Shown here piece after piece: positions 1 through 51,362 of a DNA stretch of 63,943 nt. The stretch lies in contig JAPONS010000048.1 of NCBI GenBank assembly GCA_026713825.1, forward strand, positions 1-63,943, in the 5' to 3' direction. The notes under the pieces were generated by a model that worked only from the letters and a program-made list of their open reading frames with translations, was not told the DNA's origin and searched no databases. How positions within the stretch are numbered: the first letter of the stretch is position 1; every line of letters starts with the position of its first letter. Source of the DNA: Chloroflexota bacterium (GTDB lineage Bacteria; Chloroflexota; Dehalococcoidia; Lucifugimonadales; UBA1127). The position numbers were made by a program, and so were the translations under genes.

Positions 1-9758
<9,758 letters not shown>

Positions 9759-17001: not shown

Positions 17002-17077
17002 GGCGACGTAGCCAAGTGGTTAAGGCGAGGGTCTGCAAAACCCTTATTCGGCGGTTCGATTCCGCCCGTCGCCTCCA
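17002..17077 (+). tRNA. tRNA-Cys (anticodon GCA)
   Basis: Acceptor GGCGACG/CGTCGCC, anticodon loop TCTGCAAAA region with anticodon GCA, T arm GGCGG-TTCGATT-CCGCC, discriminator T and encoded CCA. It lies 9 bases after tRNA-Leu(GAG). This tRNA would be the sensor in the proposed cysteine attenuation at 49463-49572. Confidence 0.94.
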
Positions 17078-48359: not shown

Positions 48360-48569
48360 CTACCCCCCGGTGCGCCTCCCTGCGACGCCCTCGATGAAGA
48401 AGTACACCGTCAACCCGAAGCCCAACATCAACAGCCCAAGACCGCCCATGATGTAGATGATCCCTGGACGCCCTTCGGCAATGAGCGCGATCAGCACACC
48501 CAGCCCAAACAGCGTCGCCCCAACTGACATAAGGGCCCGCGGAGCGTGCTTCAGCATGTCCGGCTGCAT
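48360..48569 (-). CDS. Small two-segment membrane protein (69 aa)
   Basis: 69 residues from ATG 48569. Two hydrophobic segments: LMSVGATLFGLGVLIALIAE and IIYIMGGLGLLMLGFGLTVYFFI, with a short loop (GRPG) and a basic end (GRRTGG). The start codon overlaps the stop of the HemQ-like gene (TAATG), so it is translated from the same message. It could be a membrane partner of the heme enzyme; no family recognised. Confidence 0.65.
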   Translation of the reverse strand: MQPDMLKHAPRALMSVGATLFGLGVLIALIAEGRPGIIYIMGGLGLLMLGFGLTVYFFIEGVAGRRTGG

Positions 48570-49279
48570 TACCCGATTCCTCTCAGGATGTCGTCCAGCC
48601 CCCGCGCGATGCAGGTGAAGATCGGCGTGTCGCGCTCCGTGTACGGCCGAGCCTCCGCCTCCCGCAGCTCCATCAGCAGGTCCAGAAACTCGTCGATGTT
48701 GGACACGTCGAACGCCACAATATGCTCCTGGTCGTCGATGCCGAAGGAGTAGGTGGTGTTGTTGCGCACCCCCGGGTACTTGTGCCCGATGGTGAAGTGC
48801 TGGTTCATCATCTCCTGCCGCCGCTCCAGCGGAAGCTGGTACCAGTCCGCAATCTTCACGAAGGGATAGACGACCAGGTACGGGTGGTCGGCGCTCTGCG
48901 GCCGCACCACCTTGGACCGCCCCTCCTGCCCCGCGTGCACGTGGTCGTCCACATACGGCGACGGCCGCGTCAGCGAGAGGTACGAGTACGCCGTCCGCAG
49001 GTACTTGCCGAGCCCCGTGCCGTTCACCGCCGCCGCGAATTCCTGCATCCCGTCCAGCGTCCATCCCAGCAGCCACAGCAGGAAGTCGGTGTCCCCGCGC
49101 AGCCCGACCAGCGAGTACGTCCGCACCTCGATGCGGTCGGAGAACTCGCCCACCATGGCGGCAAACTCCCGCCGGTGGTCATCCCGCTCGGTCTCGGGCA
49201 GGCGGCGCCACGCCGGGTCCACCTGGTAGAAGTTGTACTTCACCACCTGCCGCCGCATCACGGGCTGTGCCTCGGTCAT
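48569..49279 (-). CDS. hemQ: Chlorite dismutase-family heme protein, HemQ-like
   Basis: 236 residues from ATG 49279 (CGGAGGACGG upstream). It has the family's stretches VKYNFYQVDPAWRRL, RTYSLVGLRGDTDFLLWLLG, YPFVKIADWYQLPLERRQEMMNQHFTIGHKYPGVRNNTTYSFGIDDQEHIVAFD and the end. The His in HFTIGHKYPG region fits the proximal ligand. In Gram-positive-type pathways HemQ converts coproheme to heme b; chlorite dismutases share the fold. The distal residue that separates the two is not certain from this read, so the symbol is tentative. Confidence 0.78.
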   Translation of the reverse strand: MTEAQPVMRRQVVKYNFYQVDPAWRRLPETERDDHRREFAAMVGEFSDRIEVRTYSLVGLRGDTDFLLWLLGWTLDGMQEFAAAVNGTGLGKYLRTAYSYLSLTRPSPYVDDHVHAGQEGRSKVVRPQSADHPYLVVYPFVKIADWYQLPLERRQEMMNQHFTIGHKYPGVRNNTTYSFGIDDQEHIVAFDVSNIDEFLDLLMELREAEARPYTERDTPIFTCIARGLDDILRGIG

Positions 49280-49307
49280 GCCGTCCTCCGGGCAGAATTC
49301 AGCCACC

Positions 49308-49313
49308 ATTATA
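49308..49313 (-). promoter_or_regulatory. -10 element of the HemQ-like gene
   Basis: TATAAT on the minus strand, about 29 bases ahead of ATG 49279; no consensus -35. Confidence 0.4.
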
Positions 49314-49424
49314 GTCGTACGCGGCAACCAAGCGGCATCTTCCGCTTCGATTGGCCGCGCGATGCTCGAACATTACATAATTTCTGCACATACAACCCCA
49401 AACCGCGCCCAGATAGCCCGTCGC

Positions 49425-49453
49425 TTGACACGTTAGCTACGGAACCCTAGACT
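49425..49453 (+). promoter_or_regulatory. Sigma70-type promoter of the cysteine leader/sulfite reductase unit
   Basis: TTGACA (49425-49430), exactly 17 bases, TAGACT (49448-49453). Transcription should start near 49460, only about 3 bases before the leader ORF. Confidence 0.8.
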
Positions 49454-49462
49454 AACGGCACT

Positions 49463-49513
49463 ATGGTGACCGTATTAGTCAACAACTGTTGCTGTCGACT
49501 GCACACGGGGTAA
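49463..49513 (+). CDS. Poly-cysteine leader peptide MVTVLVNNCCCRLHTG (16 aa)
   Basis: 17 codons including TAA. Codons 9-11 are TGT TGC TGT, three consecutive cysteines. The ATG is about 3 bases after the predicted transcription start, so the ORF is nearly leaderless. A stem able to form across it and an intrinsic terminator follow, then the sulfite reductase gene. By analogy with poly-cysteine leaderless short ORFs reported ahead of sulfur-assimilation operons in mycobacteria, ribosome stalling on Cys codons at low Cys-tRNA would prevent termination. That the ORF is translated is inferred. Confidence 0.75.
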   Translation: MVTVLVNNCCCRLHTG

Positions 49514-49572
49514 GCCGAAACACAATTCCGGTGCAGCCCCGCTCGCCGATGAACTGAGCGGGGTTTTGTTTT
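49499..49572 (+). promoter_or_regulatory. Transcription attenuator ahead of sulfite reductase
   Basis: Terminator: CCCCGCTC (49537-49544) with GAGCGGGG (49556-49563), followed by TTTTGTTTT (49564-49572). Competing stems: CTGCAC-A-CGG (49499-49508) with CCGGTGCAG (49528-49536), and CGGGG (49506-49510) with CCCCG (49537-49541), which would block the terminator's left arm. A ribosome held at the Cys codons leaves CGGGG free; one that runs to the TAA at 49513 covers it. Mechanism inferred from base pairing. Confidence 0.75.
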
Positions 49573-49592
49573 GGAAGTCAAAAGGAGGGCCC

Positions 49593-51362
49593 ATGACCAC
49601 GTCTTCTGACAACCGATTTCAACCCAACGTCATCATCCCGGTTCTTCCGGAAGAGATAGACCACTTTGACAACGAGGCCAAGCGGTTCCGCTCCGGCGAC
49701 CTCGACGCCGCCGAATTCCGCGCCTTCCGCCTCCGCCAGGGCGTCTACGGCCAGCGCCAGCCCGACAACCAGATGATGCGCGTCAAGGTGCCCCTCGGCC
49801 GCATGACCCCCGACCAGCTCGAGTCCCTCGGCCGCATCGCCCGCGACTACACGCCGCTCAAGCGCGGCCACATCACCACGCGAGAGAACGTGCAGTACCA
49901 CTTCCTCAACCTGGACGACGCCGCGGAGGTCATGCGCACCCTCGGCTCGACCGGCCTCGGCAGCCGAGAGGCCTGCGGCAACACCGTCCGCAACGTCACC
50001 AGCTGCCCGCTGACCGGCGTCTGCCCGGAGGAGGTCTTTGACCCCAGCCCATACGCCGTCGCATACGTGCGCAACTTCGTGCGCCGCGACTTCACCAACA
50101 ACATGCCCCGCAAGTGGAAGACTGCCTTCAGCGGCTGCACCCACGACTGGGTCATGACCGCCATCCACGACATCGGCTTCCACGCCGTCATCCGCGAGAT
50201 CGACGGTGTCGAGCGCAAGGGCTTCCGCATCGTCGTTGGCGGCGGCACCAGCATCCAGCCGCTCATCGCCCAGGAGCTCTACGAGTTCGTGCCTGTCGAG
50301 GACTTCCTCAAGGTCTCCGAGGCATGCCTGCGGGTCTTCAACGCCGCGGACGAGCTCCGCAAGAACAAGATGAAGGCCCGCGTGAAGGTGCTCATCAACC
50401 GCATCGGCATCGACGCCTTCCGCGAGATGGTCGAGAAGGTCATGGAAGAGGAGCTCGCGGACGTCACCTATGACCTCGACGAGCTCTCCGCCGGTGAGTA
50501 CGAGGACCCCACGCCGCCGCCTCCCGCCGACTACCCGCCCTTCCCGAATGATGACCCCGCTTTTGAGCGTTGGCTCGGCAGCAACGTCATCGGGCAGAAG
50601 CAGGACGGCTATAGCGCGGTCTTCATCAAGCTCCGCCTCGGCAACGTCACTGATGAGCAGTTCTTCCAGCTTGCCGACATCTCCCGCGACTTGGCGGGCA
50701 GCATCCGCATGACGCTGCGCCAGGACATGACGCTCCAGTGGGTCCCCAACAACGCCCTGCACGTCCTGTACGAGAAGCTCGTCGCCGTCGGCATGGCCGA
50801 GCCCGGCGCCAACGAGTTGAGCGACATCGTCTCCTGCCCCGGCACCGAGAGCTGTGCCCTCGGCATCACCTCCTCACAGGGCCTAGCCGGCAACCTGTGG
50901 GACGCCCTCAGCGACTACAAGTCCCACGACGAGCTTGCCCGCAACATCCGCATCAACATCTCCGGTTGCCCGGACGGCTGCGGCCAGCACCACCTCGGCA
51001 ACATCGGCTTCCACGGCGCCGCCATCAGGGTCGGCAGCGCCCAGGTGCCCGCCTACGAGGTCTACATCGGCGGCAGCCAGATCAAGCCCGTCCGCATCGG
51101 CCAGCACCTGCGCGTCAAGGTCCCGTCCAAGCGCATCGAGGAAGCAATCAAGCTCATCGTCGACGACTACGTGGAGCACCGGAACAGCGGTGAAGTCTTC
51201 AACGACTACGTCGACCGCATCGGCGCGGCGACCTACGAGGATCTGCTGAAACCCGTCTCCACTGTGCCGGAGCTCGGTCGCGAGACCATCCACTACTACA
51301 TCGACTGGAACCGCGACGTCCTCTACAAGGTCGAGCGCGGCGAGGGTGAGTGCGCAGCCTAG
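49593..51362 (+). CDS. Ferredoxin-type sulfite/nitrite reductase, assimilatory sulfite reductase likely
   Basis: 589 residues from ATG 49593 (AAAAGGAGG upstream). Two ferredoxin-like half domains each with a SiR repeat, then the siroheme/[4Fe-4S] motif: SCPGTESCALGIT and INISGCPDGCGQHHLGNIGFHG (Cys-x5-Cys ... Cys-x3-Cys). VRNVTSCPLTGVCPEEVFD and KRGHITTRENVQYHF are siroheme-pocket stretches. It reduces sulfite to sulfide using ferredoxin, cytoplasmically. Nitrite reductases of this family look similar; the upstream cysteine leader favours sulfite reduction. A ferredoxin pair is encoded at 41805-42512. Confidence 0.9.
   Translation: MTTSSDNRFQPNVIIPVLPEEIDHFDNEAKRFRSGDLDAAEFRAFRLRQGVYGQRQPDNQMMRVKVPLGRMTPDQLESLGRIARDYTPLKRGHITTRENVQYHFLNLDDAAEVMRTLGSTGLGSREACGNTVRNVTSCPLTGVCPEEVFDPSPYAVAYVRNFVRRDFTNNMPRKWKTAFSGCTHDWVMTAIHDIGFHAVIREIDGVERKGFRIVVGGGTSIQPLIAQELYEFVPVEDFLKVSEACLRVFNAADELRKNKMKARVKVLINRIGIDAFREMVEKVMEEELADVTYDLDELSAGEYEDPTPPPPADYPPFPNDDPAFERWLGSNVIGQKQDGYSAVFIKLRLGNVTDEQFFQLADISRDLAGSIRMTLRQDMTLQWVPNNALHVLYEKLVAVGMAEPGANELSDIVSCPGTESCALGITSSQGLAGNLWDALSDYKSHDELARNIRINISGCPDGCGQHHLGNIGFHGAAIRVGSAQVPAYEVYIGGSQIKPVRIGQHLRVKVPSKRIEEAIKLIVDDYVEHRNSGEVFNDYVDRIGAATYEDLLKPVSTVPELGRETIHYYIDWNRDVLYKVERGEGECAA

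Follow-up and report, generated by a model that had tools for sequence, protein, structure and literature searches.

Known and proposed Cys leader peptides

In mycobacteria, leaderless short ORFs with runs of Cys codons are cysteine-responsive (Canestrari et al., 2020, Mol Microbiol 114:93; cited through PMC9031893, PMC9094748, and PMC13236596). Six of these poly-Cys ORFs were analyzed in M. tuberculosis (PMC9094748), and the mycobacterial attenuators are described as translational (PMC13236596, PMC9031893). As early as 2005, cys leader peptides were proposed for Mycobacterium, Propionibacterium acnes, and Bifidobacterium longum (Seliverstov, PMC1262725); no terminators were found for these leaders, and Rho-dependent control was suggested. 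For the ORF uORFC-8-2, located upstream of cysS in the Rhodobacterales, tandem Cys codons and an intrinsic terminator led to a proposal of ribosome-mediated transcription attenuation (PMC8632094).

The leader described here is located in a 63,943-nt stretch of DNA (the window), which is contig C48 in a 2.64-Mb, 114-contig genome. The preliminary description had proposed that a poly-Cys leader controls a sulfite reductase gene in this window through Cys-tRNA, following the mycobacterial precedent in what looked like a different phylum. The phylum was recognized correctly, as the named relatives of the reductase come from Chloroflexota, namely from the SAR202 cluster and the Dehalococcoidia. The precedent applies to poly-Cys sensing: as in mycobacteria, near-contiguous Cys codons are located near the end of the short ORF, ahead of sulfur or cysteine genes, and the leaders form a multi-locus regulon. 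The 2005 leaders likewise have Cys-codon runs near the leader stop, theirs being ahead of cys/cbs genes (PMC1262725). The precedent does not extend to the effector step, since the mycobacterial ORFs are described as acting translationally and lack conserved terminator hairpins (PMC1262725), whereas the Chloroflexota leaders carry strong intrinsic terminators together with a covarying antiterminator. The uORFC-8-2 leader shares a short ORF with Cys codons followed by an intrinsic terminator, but it belongs to the Alphaproteobacteria, precedes only cysS, has no sulfur-assimilation regulon, and is not described as leaderless in the accessible part of PMC8632094; the window leader, by contrast, lies ahead of a sulfite reductase gene. 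Thus, the device works like the mycobacterial ORFs at the sensing step but is set apart from them by its terminator; it also resembles uORFC-8-2, from which it is set apart by its gene context.

The likeness to trp attenuation is closer, because the effector is an intrinsic terminator. In both systems, the leader ORF carries codons for the amino acid whose shortage is sensed, and the RNA can pair in alternative ways (1:2, 2:3, and 3:4) to give a protector, an antiterminator, or a terminator, although here Cys is sensed and initiation is apparently leaderless, with almost no 5′ UTR. The control-codon leader ORF, the intrinsic terminator, an exclusive antiterminator beyond the stalled ribosome, and downstream genes of the corresponding pathway are all found. 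Judged by comparison of leaders across the order, the window device is, with high probability, a trp-operon-like ribosome-mediated transcription attenuator that senses cysteinyl-tRNA through a mostly leaderless leader ORF; the comparison strongly supports the Cys-tRNA attenuation put forward in the preliminary description. A device that couples a leaderless poly-Cys ORF to attenuation at an intrinsic terminator, and does so for a broad sulfur regulon of a further phylum, appears to be new. Our literature coverage was partial, so that finding no earlier report of leader peptides and cysteine attenuation for Chloroflexota is weak evidence of novelty; within the same partial coverage, no paper was found that joins cysteine, leader peptide, cysH, and terminator.

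Leader locus upstream of the sulfite reductase gene

The features of the locus are collected in Table 1. The promoter, the ATG about 3 nt past the expected start, the 16-codon ORF, and the TGT TGC TGT run of the preliminary description were present and accurate within 1–2 bases; the terminator with its U-tract and the competing CGGGG/CCCCG pairing were also located. The leader ATG is 10 nt past the last base of the −10 element (9 nt between them), and transcription is expected to start at ~49460, implying a 5′ UTR of ~3 nt.

Table 1. Features of the sulfite reductase leader locus in the window
Feature	Position	Strand	Basis and remarks
Sigma-70-type promoter, TTGACA-17-TAGACT	49425..49453	+	Sequence; −35 TTGACA 49425-49430, 17-nt spacer, −10 TAGACT 49448-49453; 17/18 spacing also at most homologous leaders
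Nearly leaderless leader ORF, MVTVLVNNCCCRLHTG	49463..49513	+	Sequence; 16 codons, TAA stop 49511-49513; frame selected across the order
Regulatory Cys codons, TGT TGC TGT	49487..49495	+	Sequence; two Cys kept in L004 (CC) and L005 (CC)
Protector hairpin, CUGCAC/GUGCAG with CGGGGU/AUUCCG extension	49499..49536	+	RNA folding; kept in L004
Antiterminator strand, CGGGGU	49506..49511	+	Partner GCCCCG 49536-49541; duplex −12.0 kcal/mol; fold; homologue covariation
Intrinsic terminator hairpin and U-rich tract	49536..49572	+	−17.4 kcal/mol; arms GCCCCGCTCG (49536-49545) and TGAGCGGGGT (49555-49564), then TTTTGTTTT
Shine-Dalgarno AGGAGGG of the sulfite reductase gene	~49583..49589	+	Sequence; lies past the terminator and is not part of it
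Ferredoxin-type (NirA-like) sulfite/nitrite reductase, 589 aa, siroheme	49593..51362	+	Pfam NIR_SIR, NIR_SIR_ferr

The nearest solved relative of the reductase is M. tuberculosis NirA (1zj8, E 6e-49). The protein scores under every NCBIfam equivalog cut-off, including that of the NirA family, and the assignment of sulfite rather than nitrite as its substrate therefore rests mainly on co-regulation with cysteine-pathway genes. A chlorite dismutase-family protein (PF06778) is encoded divergently from the leader, at 48569-49327 on the minus strand.

Within the 2.64-Mb genome, a loose promoter-plus-CxC pattern gave 18 matches, including the window leader. Two further matches are short Cys-containing ORFs that begin at a promoter-spaced start, and neither has a comparable leader terminator in its next 90 nt, indicating that the window leader is more than a chance occurrence. 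An Rfam covariance-model search of the window at the gathering score returned tRNAs only, and thus no riboswitch or T-box in the window. One of the window's tRNA genes, at 17002-17077 between two tRNA-Leu genes, encodes tRNA-Cys (GCA anticodon), which should be the species whose charging is sensed by the attenuator.

Conservation of the leader and selection of the Cys frame

The window layout is conserved in three congeners. In two of these, L004 and L005, other leader residues differ while two Cys persist, the third Cys codon being missing in L004. The L005 leader has the textbook set of elements, with ACCCCTCAGGGGT (1:2) right behind the Cys codons and the terminator ACCCCGC...GCGGGGT (3:4). 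Congener sulfite reductase leaders include MVTAPVNNCCRRLHTG and MLTQLINNHWCCTPQG, and those of other families MSINYSFNCCCSL, MTTTHIYKVCVCSNGP, and MLRIPKTYSLVCTCRP. Upstream sequence was available for 30 sulfite reductase loci of the order; a Cys-rich leader was found at 22 of them, and none was recognized at the other eight. The genome that contains the window has three Cys leaders, ahead of two sulfite reductase genes and cysH. The second sulfite reductase gene, L130 (G000:C99), starts at 3677, is incomplete at a contig edge, and is preceded by the leader MNIAVTTCACCRRP and a terminator.

To assess the reading frame, we searched 147 genomes of the order (SAR202-type Chloroflexota) with a frame-blind pattern, TTGACA-N17-TANNNT-N3..10-ATG-N15..42-TGYNNNTGY, which was present in 74 of them; the backwards control gave four matches. 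Among the matches listed, with tRNA-Phe promoters left out as irrelevant, there were 80 places, and the frame was open at 67 of them. The Cys codons were in the ATG frame at 70 of these 80 listed places (binomial p 1e-23), compared to 10 of 49 in Chloroflexota outside the order, where six were open (Fisher p 3e-16), and although both p-values are overstated because related genomes are not independent, the contrast is still very large. The in-frame rate outside the order is no more than chance. Matches at L201, L205, L209, L212, L213, and L214 look like chance or coding matches.

Selection for Cys was also seen when Cys was not required by the search. Among 104 sulfite reductase upstream regions scanned for a promoter-spaced ATG, 26 contained one, and 23 of these 26 directly read as Cys-rich peptides. 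In the frame of the promoter-spaced ATG, the Cys share was 15.6%, compared to 5.0% and 2.3% for the two remaining frames. The Trp version of the pattern (TGGTGG) was found in two of 59 genomes of the order, and a general strategy of leaderless attenuation for other amino acids was rejected at least for Trp. In genome G007, the promoter-spaced ORF ahead of the sulfite reductase gene (L010) contains no Cys codons, and a Cys leader is present at the cysH-sat locus (L188); control may have passed from one gene to another.

In a window of 64 kb, chance alone could place one ORF of 16 codons, three of them for Cys, downstream of a promoter and upstream of an ordinary terminator. Homologous leaders across the order retain both the Cys codons and the terminator, a check that the preliminary description had named. 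This conservation, together with the frame selection and the regulon, refutes a spurious short ORF, and we regard that explanation as having a negligible probability.

Terminators and covarying antiterminators

A terminator of −14 kcal/mol or stronger was found in 58 of 62 leaders, compared to 45 of 930 block shuffles, at a median distance of 29 nt past the leader stop. No terminator was detected under the strict U-tract rule at L012, L015, and L018, and L009 has a weak hairpin only. For the antiterminator, a zone of 24 nt beginning 12 nt past the first Cys codon was paired with the terminator arm. Zones paired with their own arm gave −12.69 kcal/mol vs. −11.09 kcal/mol for permuted arms (z −5.5; 0 of 5000 permutations), and own-arm pairing gave z −4.0 in a non-redundant set of 29 leaders. 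The controls were flat for reversed sequence (z −1.2), the 5′ half of the ORF (+0.5), and the pre-terminator spacer (−0.7). The antiterminator pairing usually begins 12–28 nt past the first Cys codon, and its two strands covary, as in GGAGGGU/ACCCUCC (L220), TGAGAGCC/GGCCTCA (L208), and GGGGGAGGGGTCTCC/GAGGCCCCTCTCCG (L196).

In the window itself, folding without a ribosome gave the protector hairpin and the terminator. The antiterminator formed when a ribosome was placed at the first of the Cys codons (−16.1 kcal/mol, 49499-49545), and with a ribosome at the stop codon, the terminator arm was nearly free (−2.0). The window antiterminator duplex alone is not unusual, as 13% of shuffles in one test and 28% in another were as strong, and the attenuation claim accordingly rests on the leader set rather than on the window locus. 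In an energy simulation, the starved and released states differed by at least 4 kcal/mol in 25 of 61 leaders, a result that rests on MFE differences and gives moderate support per leader.

These observations bear on the alternative of translational attenuation in the mycobacterial style, in which stalling on the poly-Cys run would expose a downstream ribosome-binding site and the terminator would be incidental. The mycobacterial leaderless poly-Cys ORFs are described as translational (PMC9031893; PMC13236596), and the gene downstream of the window leader has its own Shine-Dalgarno sequence. That sequence is outside the terminator, however, and neither the prevalence of a strong hairpin with a T-tract nor the covariation of the post-Cys strand with the terminator arm fits an incidental terminator; we consider translational attenuation quite improbable.

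In the favored trp-like mechanism, transcription would begin ~3 nt upstream of the AUG of the leader, and the ribosome would load at the 5′ end of the transcript. If Cys-tRNA is plentiful, the translating ribosome would get to the UAA codon and mask the CGGGG strand, so that the terminator (49536-49564) would form and RNA polymerase would halt ahead of the sulfite reductase gene. If Cys-tRNA is scarce, the ribosome would stall on the Cys codons and occlude the 5′ strand of the protector hairpin, leaving CGGGG free to pair with the CCCCG of the terminator 5′ arm; the resulting antiterminator would allow readthrough and the production of sulfide for cysteine. If the leader is not translated, the protector hairpin would sequester CGGGG, making termination the default.

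Leaders of cysH in the same genus

The cysH gene of the same genome (L225:1501-2010; G000:C47) has a different kind of candidate Cys attenuator, with a long poly-Cys leader, MTLARQAQTIVNSATAFSCVCCCCCMPASAGMEGLSG, which contains CVCCCCC and is followed by a terminator. Its antiterminator strand, TCCGCCGGG, forms 9 bp with the terminator arm (−19 kcal/mol). In this genus, the cysH leader starts well downstream of the promoter, and a clear Shine-Dalgarno sequence is located ahead of it in the congeners L226 and L227, in contrast to the short 5′ UTR implied at the window leader. The proposed leaderless start thus appears to be common in the order but not essential, because such leaders do without it.

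Sulfur regulon downstream of the leaders

We read the genes downstream of 40 pattern places, six of which look like chance matches; Pfam was run on one representative per gene group, and the remaining members were assigned by likeness. Sulfite reductase is located behind the leader at eight of the 40 places. PAPS reductase was also found behind leaders; at L188 and L193, where a longer stretch was read, it is followed by ATP sulfurylase and APS kinase. Other genes behind leaders encode TauE/SafE, TusA followed by a DsrE-like protein, rhodanese lipoproteins, a PF03601 transporter, and, at L220, ThiF followed by a PLP-dependent CysK/M-type enzyme. The gene cysS was not identified among the sampled Cys-leader loci examined. 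Together, the genes behind the leaders form a sulfur regulon of cysteine-pathway genes. The order's bacteria very probably switch on sulfur assimilation when cysteine-charged tRNA is short.

The composition of the regulon is relevant to another possible mode of sensing, such as ribosome stalling caused by a nascent Cys-rich peptide once a metal, sulfide, or an oxidant is bound to it. CxC and CCC motifs generally bind metals, and the regulon members TauE, rhodanese, and DsrE handle reactive sulfur. On the other hand, many of the targets are assimilatory cysteine-pathway genes, and the peptides have little in common but Cys, which occurs as CCC, CC, CxC, CCCCC, or CVCCCCC at varied spacing. Such variation in form and spacing is easier to reconcile with the reading of codons than with a peptide motif, and we consider peptide sensing very unlikely.

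A DUF4395 protein is encoded behind Cys leaders three times (L190, L200, and L224), which suggests a role of this family in sulfur or thiol metabolism. More uncharacterized proteins were observed behind Cys leaders at L210 and L211 (both CMD family), L196 (DUF3303), and L186. The leaders offer a means of recognizing further sulfur genes through guilt by regulation.

In the dark ocean, SAR202 bacteria are an abundant group whose part in the sulfur cycle has been discussed. No paper on the regulation of SAR202 sulfur assimilation was found within our partial literature coverage. The leaders extend Cys leader-peptide attenuation to the Chloroflexota; they also give a regulon that is open to testing, has a defined signal (cysteinyl-tRNA), and is readable from sequence alone. 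Taken jointly, it is somewhat probable that mostly leaderless poly-Cys/terminator attenuation is the main, regulon-wide control of sulfur assimilation in the SAR202 order, that it originated or was retained in several phyla, and that uncharacterized families such as DUF4395 have sulfur-related roles.

Cys-rich leaders in other phyla

Similar arrangements were noticed outside the Chloroflexota. In a Flavobacteriales MAG (L100), a Cys-rich leader, MNAMMNCCACVAVCCCKHKERFFVPC, is located 172 nt upstream of a sulfite reductase match at 3001, accompanied by a terminator of low GC content and an antiterminator of 12 bp without mismatches, AAGAAAGGTTTT/AAAGCCTTTCTT. In three Acidobacteria MAGs (L105, L107, and L108), sulfite reductase is preceded by a Cys-rich leader ORF that is spaced appropriately from a promoter (upstream of 3001), with strong terminators also present at L105 and L107.
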